DNA of 18,023 nucleotides from a bacterium (GTDB lineage Bacteria > UBA9089 > CG2-30-40-21 > SBAY01), in the NCBI GenBank assembly GCA_040757115.1, contig JBFLYA010000069.1, positions 1 through 18,023 on the forward strand, read 5' to 3'. Numbering within the stretch: position 1 is the first letter of the stretch; the number at the start of each line of letters is the position of its first letter. A model generated the notes under the pieces. It had not been told where the DNA came from and did not search any database. It saw only the letters and a program-made list of their open reading frames with translations. Below are positions 6,699 through 11,358 of this stretch, piece after piece. The position numbers and the translations under genes were made by a program.

Positions 6699-6716
6699 CC
6701 CCCTTTATTAAGGGGG
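6699..6716. repeat. CCCCCTT-TATT-AAGGGGG hairpin
   Basis: A 7-bp GC-rich stem with a four-base loop, preceded by another CCCCCTAA. No T-run follows on either strand, so it is not called a terminator; it lies in the gap between ecfT and purS. Confidence 0.6.
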
Positions 6717-6792
6717 AATATCTGTTCTACACCATAGGATACAAGTCTGTGGATACTATACTAATTCACTAATCTCTAATTCACTAATTCGC

Positions 6793-6925
6793 TATTTTCA
6801 GGTGAAACGGACATGCCGACAAGTCGGCACATAGGAGGATGAAAATACTAGAGGGTAGAAAGAGAAAGAAAAGGCTTGTCTTTCCTTACTTTCTACTCTC
6901 TACTTTCTACTTCCTTATTTTCAGG
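6793..6925. mobile_element. Element D: short palindromic insertion with TATTTTCAGG direct repeats
   Basis: TATTTTCAGG occurs at 6793-6802 and 6916-6925, and the match extends to TATTTTCAGG(T/A)GAA. Between them are the second GGTGAAACGGACATG module (6801-6815) with hairpin GCCGAC-AA-GTCGGC (6815-6828) and an imperfect inverted repeat of AGAGGGTAGAAAGAG (6849-6863) with CTTTCTACTCTCTAC (about 6889-6903). Fits an insertion with a 10-bp duplication, but the first direct repeat overlaps the module, so the limits are uncertain. Confidence 0.5.
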
Positions 6926-6939
6926 AGAACCCTATTTCT

Positions 6940-7722: not shown

Positions 7723-7878
7723 GGCAATCCCTCCTCACTTTACCTAATTATATAGAGTTCCGCAAAACTAAGAAACTGTAGTTTTTAAGCGGGTATTTAA
7801 AACCTCTATTTTTATCAATTTCCTCCAAAAATCAAAATGCAAAAAGCAAATATAAAAATTACATATCAAAATGTAAAA

Positions 7879-8053
7879 TTATCTCTTCCCTTTCAGCATT
7901 AAAATACTTGAAGCAAAGATATTACCAAATTCCTCCAACTCTTTGAGAAACACTATCCTTTGGCAACTTATCGATGAATTCTATAAGTCGCAGAGTAAAG
8001 TTATACAATCTTTTCTTGAAGTCCTTTTTGAAATTTGATTTGTAATTTTGCAT
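7879..8053 (-). pseudogene. Internally deleted four-helix-bundle (S23/IVP-type) protein gene
   Basis: From the ATG at 8053 the reverse strand reads 43 codons, including LYNFTLRLIEFIDKLPKDSV, which is the first-helix block of the four-helix-bundle family (the 23S rRNA intervening-sequence protein group). It stops at 7922. In another frame, 7938-7879 reads LEEFGNIFASSILMLKGKR, which I recognise as the usual C-terminus of these proteins. The middle, roughly 60 residues, is missing and the join is out of frame. This is therefore a gene with an internal deletion rather than a simple truncation. It lies inside element E. The family's biochemical role is not established. Confidence 0.75.
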
Positions 8054-8055
8054 TT

Positions 8056-8111
8056 TGATATTTATATTTGATATTTAATATTTGATATTTGATATTTGAT
8101 ATTTGATATTT
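8056..8111. repeat. TTTGATA heptamer tandem repeat
   Basis: Seven-base TGATATT units, exact over several copies near 8083-8110 and degenerate to the left. There are no spacers, so it is not a CRISPR array. Confidence 0.75.
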
Positions 8112-8196
8112 ATTTGTTGTCTCCCCCAAATCCTATTTTGCAGAACCTTATACCTAATTATACACTAAAAATTAATTTTGGTCAAGAAAAAAATTG

Positions 8197-8516: not shown

Positions 8517-11253
8517 AATGAAGGCAGACTTGCCTAAAAGAGAGCCGGATATTTTAAAATCCTGGCAAGAATTAGATATCTATAATACCCTACGCCAGGA
8601 GAGAAAAGACAATCCCAAATATGTCTTACATGATGGTCCTCCTTATGCCAATGGTGACATCCACATGGGTCATGCCTTAAATAAAATATTAAAGGATATT
8701 ATCGTTAAGTATAAATCAATGAAAGGATTTAATGCCCCGTATGTGCCGGGCTGGGATTGCCACGGATTGCCGATTGAGTATAAAGTCGTTGCTGAAACAA
8801 AAGATAGTGATAAATTAACGAAAATGGAGATTCGCAAGATTTGTCGAGATTATGCCATTTATTTTGCTGGTGTGCAAAAAGAGGAATTTAAAAGACTGGG
8901 AATATTAGGGGACTGGGAAAGACCTTATTTGACATTAACCAATGACTATTCCGCCGCGGTCATTGAGGTGTTTAAAGAATTAGTCGAAAAAGGGTATATC
9001 TACAAAAGTAAGAAACCTGTCTATTGGTGTGCGACCTGTGGCACGGCTTTAGCTGAGGCTGAGGTGGAATATAAAGAGGTTTCCTCCCCTTCTATCTTTG
9101 TCAAATTCCCCATAAAACCAACGGCTAAATGGGAAGAATTTCAATCCAAAATTTTGCTTCGCAACATTCTTCGAATTCAAAATCCCTCCATACTCATCTG
9201 GACGACTACCCCCTGGACACTTCTGGCGAATGTTGCCATTGCTCTCAATCCACAATTTGAGTATTCACTTATTAAAGTAGAGGGTGAAAACTTAATTATG
9301 GCTCGGGAACTAATTGAATCAACATTAACCGCCGCAGGGAAAAAGGACTATGAAGAATTAGCCACATTCAGAGGAGATGAATTAGAGGGAATTGTTTGCC
9401 AACACCCATTTATTGAGCGTGATTCGCTGGTTATTTTAGGTTCTCATGTCACCAGGGAACAGGGCACAGGATGTGTTCATACTGCTCCAGGACATGGGTT
9501 AGACGATTATGAGGTCGGATTCAAATATAACCTGCCTGTTATTGCCCCGGTAGATAGTAATGGTAAATTTACGAATGAAGGAGATGAATTTGCTGGCTTA
9601 AATGTCTTTTCTGCTAATAAACATATCATTGAAAAAATACACTCACTTGGAAAACTCTTTCATCAAGAGACAATTACGCATTCTTATCCTCATTGTTGGA
9701 GATGTAAGCATAAAATTATTTTTCGTGCCACAGACCAATGGTTTATCCGATTAGAAAATGATGAATTACGACAAAAAACACTTAAGGCAATTGAGGATGT
9801 TACCTGGGTTCCTGCCTGGGGTGAAGAACGATTTTATAATACAGTGAATTTGCGGGCTGATTGGTGTATCTCAAGACAGCGGGCATGGGGTGTGCCAATT
9901 CCTGCTTTTTATTGCACAAATTGCCAGCAAACCCTTCTGGATTCAAATATAATTGAGATGATTAAAAATCAAATCCGAGAGCAAGGGATTGACATTTGGT
10001 TTGAGAAAGATGCAGATTCCTTTTTGCCTGAAGGAATAAAGTGTAAAGAATGTGGAGGTAACAAATTCAGAAAGGAAGAGGACATTATTGATGTCTGGTT
10101 TGAATCCGGGGTAAGCCATCGGGCGGTGCTTAAAAAGAGCCAAGAACTTACCTTCCCGGCTGACCTTTATTTAGAAGGCTCTGACCAACACCGTGGCTGG
10201 TTTCAATCCTCAATACTTACCTCAATGGCAACGGAAAAAATACCACCATACAAAGCCGTCTTAACTCACGGATTTATGTTGGATGAGGAAGGAAAGGCAA
10301 TGAGCAAATCTATGGGAAATGTTATCTCCCCATTGAATATTATTGACAAATATGGGGCGGATATTTTAAGGTTATGGGTAATCTCAGAAGATTATCGCGG
10401 GGATGTCCGATTAGGACAGGAAATACTTACCCGAATGGGTGAATCTTATCGAAAAATACGCAATACATTTAGATTTATGCTGGGAAACCTTTATGATTTT
10501 AATCCATCAAAAGATAAGATTGCATATCCAGACCTGATGCGGATTGATAAATGGGTATGCCATCAATTGACATTGCTAATTCAGAAGGTAACAGATGCCT
10601 ATGAGAAATTTGAATTTCATCTCATCTATCATTTGATACTTAATTTCTGCTCAAGTTTCCTGAGTGCGTTATATTTGGATATACTTAAAGATAGGCTTTA
10701 TACCCTTGCCGCAGACTCAAAAAAAAGAAGATCAGCCCAAACCGTGATGTATGAAATTACTACTTCGTTGACTAAACTGTTGGCGCCTGTTTTAAGTTTT
10801 ACCTCAGAAGAAATATGGCAAAATTTGATTATTGAAGATAAAAAAACAAGTGTGCATTTAACCCTGTTTCCAACACCAAATTTAAAATATTTAGATGAAA
10901 CTACCGCAGAACAATGGGAGGAAATTCTGGATGTCCGAGAGAAGGTCAGTAAGGCATTGGAAGAGGCAAGAGCCAGTGGCTTAATTGGCTCATCATTAGA
11001 GGCACAGGTAATTTTGACTTATCCCCCTGAAAAGGAAAATCTACTTAGAGAATACGAAGATGAATTAAGATTTGTCTTTATTGTCTCTTATGTCGAGTTG
11101 ATAAAAGGGGAGGAACTAAAAGTCGAGGTAAAAAGGGCTAAAGGGAGTAAATGCAGTCGTTGTTGGAATTACAGCGAGGCAGTTGGAAGTTTTACCCCAC
11201 ATCCAACTCTTTGTGAACGATGTATTAAAGTGGTCTCGCATGGTAACTGGTAA
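8473..11253 (+). CDS. ileS: Isoleucyl-tRNA synthetase
   Basis: Class I aminoacyl-tRNA synthetase that charges tRNA-Ile and edits valine. N-terminus MNYQDTLNLPKTEFKMKADL is typical of bacterial IleS. HIGH motif is HMGH (64-67, within PPYANGDIHMGHAL), the editing domain follows (WTTTPWTL and GTGCVHTAPGHG), and the KMSKS motif is GKAMSKS (about 607-613). A C-terminal zinc finger CSRCW...LCERC (C894, C897, C914, C917) is present. The length of 926 residues is normal and nothing is broken. I choose the ATG at 8473; the one at 8467 is too close to GGAG (8460-8463). The final residues HGNW and the stop codon are encoded by the start of a palindromic repeat (11241-11334), so the C-terminal tail has been reshaped by it. 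Confidence 0.98.
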   Translation: MNYQDTLNLPKTEFKMKADLPKREPDILKSWQELDIYNTLRQERKDNPKYVLHDGPPYANGDIHMGHALNKILKDIIVKYKSMKGFNAPYVPGWDCHGLPIEYKVVAETKDSDKLTKMEIRKICRDYAIYFAGVQKEEFKRLGILGDWERPYLTLTNDYSAAVIEVFKELVEKGYIYKSKKPVYWCATCGTALAEAEVEYKEVSSPSIFVKFPIKPTAKWEEFQSKILLRNILRIQNPSILIWTTTPWTLLANVAIALNPQFEYSLIKVEGENLIMARELIESTLTAAGKKDYEELATFRGDELEGIVCQHPFIERDSLVILGSHVTREQGTGCVHTAPGHGLDDYEVGFKYNLPVIAPVDSNGKFTNEGDEFAGLNVFSANKHIIEKIHSLGKLFHQETITHSYPHCWRCKHKIIFRATDQWFIRLENDELRQKTLKAIEDVTWVPAWGEERFYNTVNLRADWCISRQRAWGVPIPAFYCTNCQQTLLDSNIIEMIKNQIREQGIDIWFEKDADSFLPEGIKCKECGGNKFRKEEDIIDVWFESGVSHRAVLKKSQELTFPADLYLEGSDQHRGWFQSSILTSMATEKIPPYKAVLTHGFMLDEEGKAMSKSMGNVISPLNIIDKYGADILRLWVISEDYRGDVRLGQEILTRMGESYRKIRNTFRFMLGNLYDFNPSKDKIAYPDLMRIDKWVCHQLTLLIQKVTDAYEKFEFHLIYHLILNFCSSFLSALYLDILKDRLYTLAADSKKRRSAQTVMYEITTSLTKLLAPVLSFTSEEIWQNLIIEDKKTSVHLTLFPTPNLKYLDETTAEQWEEILDVREKVSKALEEARASGLIGSSLEAQVILTYPPEKENLLREYEDELRFVFIVSYVELIKGEELKVEVKRAKGSKCSRCWNYSEAVGSFTPHPTLCERCIKVVSHGNW

Positions 11254-11334
11254 TTGGTAATTGGTGAATGGTAATTAGTTACCAATTAACCGATTACCAG
11301 TTACCAATTACCATTTACCATTTACCAGTTACCA
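11241..11334. repeat. Element F: palindrome of TGGTAACTGGTAA words at the ileS 3' end
   Basis: TGGTAACTGGTAA (11241-11253) is matched exactly by TTACCAGTTACCA (11322-11334), with repeated GGTAATTGG/CCAATTACC words between, so the whole 94 bases can fold. It includes the last ileS codons and stop, and ends about 24 bases before the next start codon. A similar GGTAAATGGTAACTGG run lies at 6619-6636. Confidence 0.8.
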
Positions 11335-11358
11335 AAAGTAAGGAGGAAGATTAGCACA

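Follow-up and report, generated by a model that had tools for sequence, protein, structure and literature searches.

A transposon-like element with the remains of a four-helix-bundle gene module, and short inverted word arrays around four-helix-bundle genes in many bacterial phyla

Introduction

The described systems close to the locus analysed here include the intervening sequences (IVS) of 23S rRNA. That of Coxiella burnetii is a 428-nt stem-loop which contains an S23 (four-helix-bundle, 4HB) reading frame with tandem GACAGAT heptamers upstream; RNase III cuts in its stem, and its origin has been called unclear (PMC4990558). A homologous four-helix-bundle fold is found in Avd of diversity-generating retroelements (PMC10053308), and the 23S rRNA IVP domain is listed among the CRISPR-linked proteins of a published screen. 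In the literature searched, subscription journals aside, no paper connects orphan 4HB genes with inverted heptamer arms. Degenerate tandem 7-bp words that are intergenic and form complementary stems are familiar from the cyanobacterial STRR sequences and from the heptamer stems of the Nostoc tRNA-Leu intron; the literature searched does not link either of them to 4HB genes or to target duplications.

Here, we analysed a stretch of 18,023 nucleotides (called the window) from a bacterial genome assembled into 462 contigs (host genome, G000). A first-pass annotation of its sequence had pointed to an exact 12-bp direct repeat around a 398-bp segment with inverted ends, and had read this segment as a non-autonomous transposon whose only gene is a 4HB gene with a deleted middle. 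Carriage by such transposons was offered as the explanation for the scattered distribution of 4HB genes.

Results

A multi-copy transposon-like element with an empty site in a sister species

The element occupies positions 7753-8150 of the window, between an EcfT-like and a DUF167-like gene (names from translations). It begins with TAGAGTTCCGCAAAACT and finishes with TTTTGCAGAACCTTA; an end-sequence search delimited a left terminal inverted repeat (TIR) TAGAGTTCCGCAAAA at 7753-7767 on the plus strand (family consensus TAGRGTTCTGCAAAA) and a right one, TTTTGCAGAACCTTA (reverse complement TAAGGTTCTGCAAAA), at 8136-8150 on the minus strand. Exact copies of the 12-bp target-site duplication TACCTAATTATA lie at 7741-7752 and 8151-8162. 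The repeat, the 398-bp segment and the inverted ends were all found where the first-pass annotation had placed them, and the empty site that it had predicted exists: the orthologous region of the sister species G001, 96-99% identical, lacks the element and contains TACCTAATTATA once. The element thereby withstood the refuting test that the annotation had set for it. The element is not located within a 23S rRNA gene; a 23S motif scan of part of the loci gave no hit, no Rfam family matched in the window, and no relatives were found in the phage records searched.

Ends of this type (family A) are abundant in the host genome, where TAGRGTTCTGCAAAA with at most one mismatch occurs at 155 sites as compared to none for a reversed-pattern control. 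A whole-genome search with the element returned 140 matching pieces and about 40 scored places; these genome-wide counts rest on sequence searches in an assembly whose contigs frequently end in repeats. Two-ended copies measure about 260-584 bp, and 23 of the 27 TIR-bounded copies are flanked by target duplications of 8-13 bp (most commonly 9, some with one mismatch). With its multi-site copies, duplications and empty site, the segment 7753-8150 is a non-autonomous DNA transposon-like element from a multi-copy family, as had been proposed.

The enzyme is the part of the proposal that did not materialize: homologous units and an empty site with a single TACCTAATTATA were found, and a transposase with matching ends was not. 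None lies inside the family A copies, none with matching ends was present at the 13 PF01609 loci of the genus (the sole transposase family searched), and none was seen between facing end pairs 0.7-3 kb apart, about 100 of the 155 end sites being readable. A duplication length of 8-13 bp would presumably suit an IS4-like or IS1-like enzyme; none was found for family A ends. A transposase supplied in trans would have mobilized the window element through its outer ends.

Several other repeats were encountered. Many family A target duplications in the host genome fall within GGTAATT-type heptamer arrays, and family A therefore often inserts into or beside solo hairpins. Part of family A is found inside a composite element that has ends GGTGGTGTCTGAAAATAA and is flanked by 8-bp duplications (contigs C36, C106 and C31; loci L053, L044 and L056); the ends of this composite occur at 96 sites in the genome with at most two mismatches. 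MITE-like insertions with ends GTAACCGTTCACCGCAGAG.../...CTGAACGGTTAC and apparent 8-bp duplications are present in just one of two sister genomes (L331/L324, L338/L339 and L330/L322). Window positions 6700-6930 match some 30 places in G001 with 77-97% identity and belong to a separate dispersed repeat family.

The 4HB gene of the element and its deletion

Two larger family A copies, on contigs C211 and C50, carry intact 4HB genes that run against the window orientation. Both proteins match PF05635 (23S rRNA-intervening sequence protein family), and this sole gene of the intact copies matches no other Pfam family. The intact parent protein scores 67.2 bits against PF05635 (curated cut-off 33.8) and 81.2 bits against TIGR02436 (cut-off 24), which has 27 matches in the host genome; the C211 protein, the sole one searched, matches PDB chain 2RLD (E 3e-11).

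Aligned to the 584-bp C211 copy, the window copy lacks 197 bp between two 12-bp TCTTTGAGAAAC repeats and shows small word-array differences. One repeat copy remains as the deletion junction (7940-7951). Alignment with the intact copy L034 places the N-terminal part of the gene at 7940-8053 on the minus strand (start codon 8053-8051) and, on the same strand, the C-terminal part at 7879-7939; the deletion has put the two parts out of frame, and the middle of the gene is indeed missing. The identical junction was found at four other places (C346, C6, C89 and C138; five sites including the window), and the deleted form must therefore have moved after it arose.

Both arms of the 4HB module are still recognizable. 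The upstream arm (8043-8120, minus strand) is a word array (TATTTGA)n, with clear period 7 at 8059-8120, and the downstream arm (7831-7881, minus strand) is its imperfect inverted repeat, identified by complementarity and by matches to module copies in G010, a genome from another family of the phylum. Over 56 nt (7826-7881 and 8043-8098) the arms are 79% complementary. Arrays of period 5, 6, 8, 9 or 10 were not present in the window.

The G010 relatives separate the module from its transposon shell. Their arm-gene-arm part is 84-89% identical to that of family A, the outer 80 and 60 bp of family A are unmatched, and the G010 modules sit inside other terminal sequences (ACTCAACTTTGGCAAA...) at sites with differing flanks. 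As G010 carries the module with other ends, the two are separable. In the host genome, 4HB genes are further found in elements with ends GTAACTATTCA (8-bp duplications in four of six copies) and in elements with ends CTAGTGCTCTGTCGC or ACCCTACAACG, at neither of which a convincing duplication was seen. Many others have no transposon shell: they lie between co-directional operon genes, bounded by their own inverted arrays of 7-bp words. The window element looks like a 4HB module with word arms, now decayed, that a conventional non-autonomous transposon has captured.

Word arms accompany 4HB genes and follow the protein lineage

Most 4HB genes of the host genome, within a shell or not, have a short-word array upstream and its reverse complement downstream, and the words differ by 4HB lineage (GGGACTC, AGTAGGA, TAGTTGA, GGGCAGA and so on). 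For 84 genes of the phylum set the median arm complementarity was 24.5, whereas mispaired arms gave 10.6; 75% of the genes scored above the 95th percentile obtained by mispairing their own arms. Seven bp is the predominant period, seen in 68 of 83 strongly periodic stretches, and some words have 8 or 9 bp. As the loci had partly been picked for holding repeats, array counts are not genome-wide rates.

4HB genes of other phyla show the same arm pattern. A sample of 80 loci was picked by protein similarity only; they span more than ten phyla and include Acidobacteria, Bacteroidetes, Cyanobacteria, Planctomycetes, Verrucomicrobia, Desulfobacterota, Chloroflexi, Clostridia, Calditrichaeota, Nitrospirae, Elusimicrobia and others. 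An arm score of at least 20 was reached by 24% of 78 4HB genes and by 2% of 185 ordinary genes of the same records (14 ordinary genes served as controls in the phylum set). A single word family keeps returning in this sample, CAGRAG with T or A as the next letter: a tandem pair stands upstream of 49% and downstream of 28% of the genes at a background of 0.4%. By the score used, about a quarter of the 4HB genes of the phylum lack convincing arms, as do over half of the 80 closest genes from other phyla. The percentages of genes with arms vary with the alignment score and with the start codon chosen, and are lower bounds, since the automatic score missed real arms that were short or overlapped the reading frame (L355-L357).

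The word was then compared with the protein. Across 160 genes, own arms scored 19.7 as compared to 10.0 when shuffled; between genes, the arm match stays at background below about 45% protein identity and is clearly higher from 50%. Proteins of cyanobacterial plasmids that are 35-47% identical have the words GGGAACA, GGTGACA, GGGAAAA or CAGRAGT, whereas 4HB proteins of about 60-70% identity in other phyla have CAGRAGT in common. One word is shared by proteins about 60% identical in Acidobacteria, Planctomycetota, Bacteroidota, Bacillota and Cyanobacteria. An exception is a Picosynechococcus protein, 58-65% identical, with a word nearer to AGGAGAT. Short inverted word arrays, usually of 7 bp, commonly flank 4HB genes, and the word tracks the protein lineage. 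Such linkage is what binding of the word by the protein predicts; whole modules inherited together, their words drifting slowly, would account for part of the pattern, and some of the arm likeness among relatives could come from plain descent.

Selection on RNA pairing of the arms was considered as well and set aside: G-U-compatible differences were not in excess (202 versus 193, p 0.69), which argues against strong selection on RNA pairing. Two further observations concern single genomes. At L129 (G014, contig C19) the word array enters the reading frame and yields a C-terminal tail of repeated DSQTP, and contigs C2, C3, C7, C12 and C13 of G026 contain 19 weak TIGR02436 matches, several of them paired on opposite strands at a spacing of about 300 bp.

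Operon junctions and solo hairpins

Many stand-alone modules are found between close co-directional genes, among them fabD-fabG, yceD-rpmF, nuoA-nuoB, pstB-phoU, flgF-flgG, gspE-gspF, a cas2-like/Cas4-like pair and tRNA-Leu/gyrA (names read from the flanks). Same-strand upstream neighbours outnumber opposite-strand ones by 51:1 in the phylum set and by 18:7 and 56:10 in other phyla. In related genomes an equivalent junction may be unoccupied, or it may contain either an unrelated 4HB gene with a different word or a hairpin devoid of an ORF. At tRNA-Leu/gyrA, for example, G000 and G001 carry different 4HB genes, G002 an AATTATG hairpin and G003 nothing comparable; at gspE-gspF, G000 holds what appears to be the G001 module minus its gene. 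The nuoA-nuoB site is empty in G000 as compared to G001, with a divergence too great to read a duplication.

The window itself contains an ORF-less hairpin of this kind at 11240-11337, between ileS and the next gene, made up of GGTAACT arrays at 11240-11276 and 11287-11337. Its predicted RNA fold has -47.5 kcal/mol (z -8.4), 4HB genes with the word GGTAACT exist in G001, and we read it as the solo relic of another word-arm element. Two solo hairpins fold far better than shuffled sequences (z -8.4 and -9.4), unlike a third stretch, which was taken from within a family A copy (z -0.6). The hairpin abuts the end of ileS, whose stop codon comes from the word TGGTAA. Further period-7 arrays of the window are CATTCTA/GAATGTA at 1161-1197, the same word being found at 4HB genes in G001, G002 and G003, and AGTAGAA/AGTAGAG at 2677-2711, which is the word of a 4HB gene on host contig C16. 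At L059 and L064 (host contigs C42 and C7), 4HB modules lie within or beside a CRISPR-like repeat array GACCTGATGAATAAGGGATTGCGAC.

Modules as insertions in cyanobacterial plasmids

In plasmids of Trichormus variabilis a 4HB module interrupts a row of genes whose counterparts in Nostoc linckia and Aulosira, about 98% identical, are empty. The junctions read AAAAAGTAAT/AAATCAG...TTCTTCTTT/GTAATTAACAAAT as compared to AAAAAGTAATTAACAAAT at the empty site, i.e. a duplication of the 5 bp GTAAT, within which the stop codon lies. Scytonema has the module at the same place, pC052_E of Nostoc C052 has a truncated one, and Brasilonema has a gene-less hairpin with the same word. Comparison of the junctions of Nostoc C052_D and N6 gave a second 5-bp duplication, TTCTA, with flanks 91-95% identical. 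In these two plasmid cases, 4HB modules are insertions with a 5-bp duplication. On pNsp_c of ATCC 53789 a module is inserted at an overlapping stop/start TAATG with about 3 bp repeated, and in PCC 7003 a module that PCC 7002 lacks separates cas10 from cmr3; at this Picosynechococcus site and at the Aulosira site presence and absence are seen, the duplication being unreadable.

Discussion

We put at roughly 0.8 the probability that the window contains a transposon-like element with the remains of a 4HB module, that such modules were formerly mobile by themselves with a protein that binds their word, and that the 23S rRNA intervening sequences are of the same kind. Before its capture the module would have moved on its own. 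We infer that the 4HB protein would bind its own arm word and take part in movement, bringing the ends together or protecting them, with a separate nuclease likely doing the cutting; the IVS would be elements of this kind with rRNA as their insertion site. The idea that transposon carriage accounts for the scatter of 4HB genes found no support as a general account, unlike the transposon-like unit itself: many 4HB genes have no shell and two modules insert with a 5-bp duplication, and a self-mobile module therefore explains the scatter better. Capture by ordinary transposons is better explained as a secondary route of spread. We lean slightly towards a broader statement, namely that PF05635/TIGR02436 proteins serve a pan-bacterial class of small mobile elements in sequence-specific mobility or end binding, the ends of these elements being inverted arrays of a 7-bp word matched to the protein, with IVS as their rRNA-inserted members and dispersed heptamers as their gene-less relics.

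The 4HB gene might alternatively be a pure passenger, with arms that are slippage-prone short tandem repeats, accumulated between genes through mutation alone, made inverse by hairpin-templated copying and unrelated to the protein. Arm lengths vary, the arms are degenerate and differ without G-U bias, and gene-less period-7 arrays are common in the host genome, all of which would fit; but such flanks are rare among ordinary genes of the same records, proteins of about 60% identity use one word across phyla while the 35-47% identical plasmid proteins use others, and gene and arms insert jointly with a target duplication, which makes this explanation unlikely. Somewhat more credible, but still doubtful, is an action as RNA after the manner of the 23S rRNA intervening sequences, in which RNase III would excise the arm stem, insertion into operons would hence be tolerated and an RNA intermediate may serve mobility. 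The orientation of 4HB genes with operon transcription in the phylum set, the very stable solo hairpins and the RNase III cleavage of the Coxiella stem speak for it. Against it stand the missing wobble asymmetry between the arms, the weaker neighbour-strand bias in other phyla, the presence of the window family inside DNA transposon ends, and target duplications, which point to DNA breaks.

It is quite improbable that the operon 4HB genes are functional host genes (CRISPR accessory genes, for instance) retained for a role linked to their neighbours. Some do lie in cas operons (cas10-cmr3, cas6-cas4, and next to cas2-like and Cas4-like genes) and the family appears among the CRISPR-linked domains of the published screen, yet the junction is empty in close relatives (PCC 7002 versus PCC 7003), related species have unrelated 4HB genes or gene-less hairpins at equal junctions, and the neighbours are as diverse as nuo, flg, gsp, pst, fab, gyrA and rpmF. 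As for an origin of the window repeats and of the deletion by chance, with no movement at all, the window is AT-rich and repeat-rich, and short repeats in two copies are frequently accidental; the empty G001 site refutes this reading, and its precision, the 155 end sites against none in the control and the duplications in 23 of 27 copies leave it a negligible probability.

The preferred reading, self-mobile modules with word-binding proteins, joins three puzzles that have been handled separately, the orphan 4HB genes, the 23S rRNA intervening sequences and the dispersed heptamer repeats, under one shared testable prediction: each 4HB protein recognizes its own word. It would place 4HB genes, which are widespread and of no known function, often in small mobile elements of many bacterial phyla. 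It also calls for caution, as 4HB genes within cas and other operons may be insertions instead of functional partners; since the plasmid and cas-operon modules are presence/absence insertions, some of the CRISPR-linked IVP-domain proteins may be insertions, too.

Comparison with known systems

Family A resembles MITEs in being short and present in many copies, with terminal inverted repeats, target duplications and internal deletions and without a transposase. It differs from MITEs that derive from insertion sequences by internal deletion in that its cargo is a conserved 4HB module with inverted word arms and not the relic of a transposase. As with Avd, a 4HB fold is involved, but neither a reverse transcriptase nor a template/variable repeat was noticed beside the modules examined. 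REP/RAYT systems offer an analogy only: they, too, combine dispersed gene-less short palindromes with copies that flank a dedicated protein gene, whereas the 4HB protein is unrelated to Y1 (HUH) transposases and the module arms are multi-copy heptamer arrays. The 23S rRNA intervening sequences of Coxiella, Leptospira and others share with the modules a length of about 430 nt, a complementary terminal stem and a PF05635 frame in sense orientation and, in Coxiella, heptamers; the Coxiella word GACAGAT resembles the CAGRAG family when compared by eye. In contrast to the IVS, the modules lie in operons or transposons and not in rRNA, their words vary with the protein lineage, and a 5-bp target duplication was seen for two of them. 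IVS-type arms around a 4HB frame, together with heptamers, characterize the modules generally, and the window copy retains the arms together with its deleted gene.
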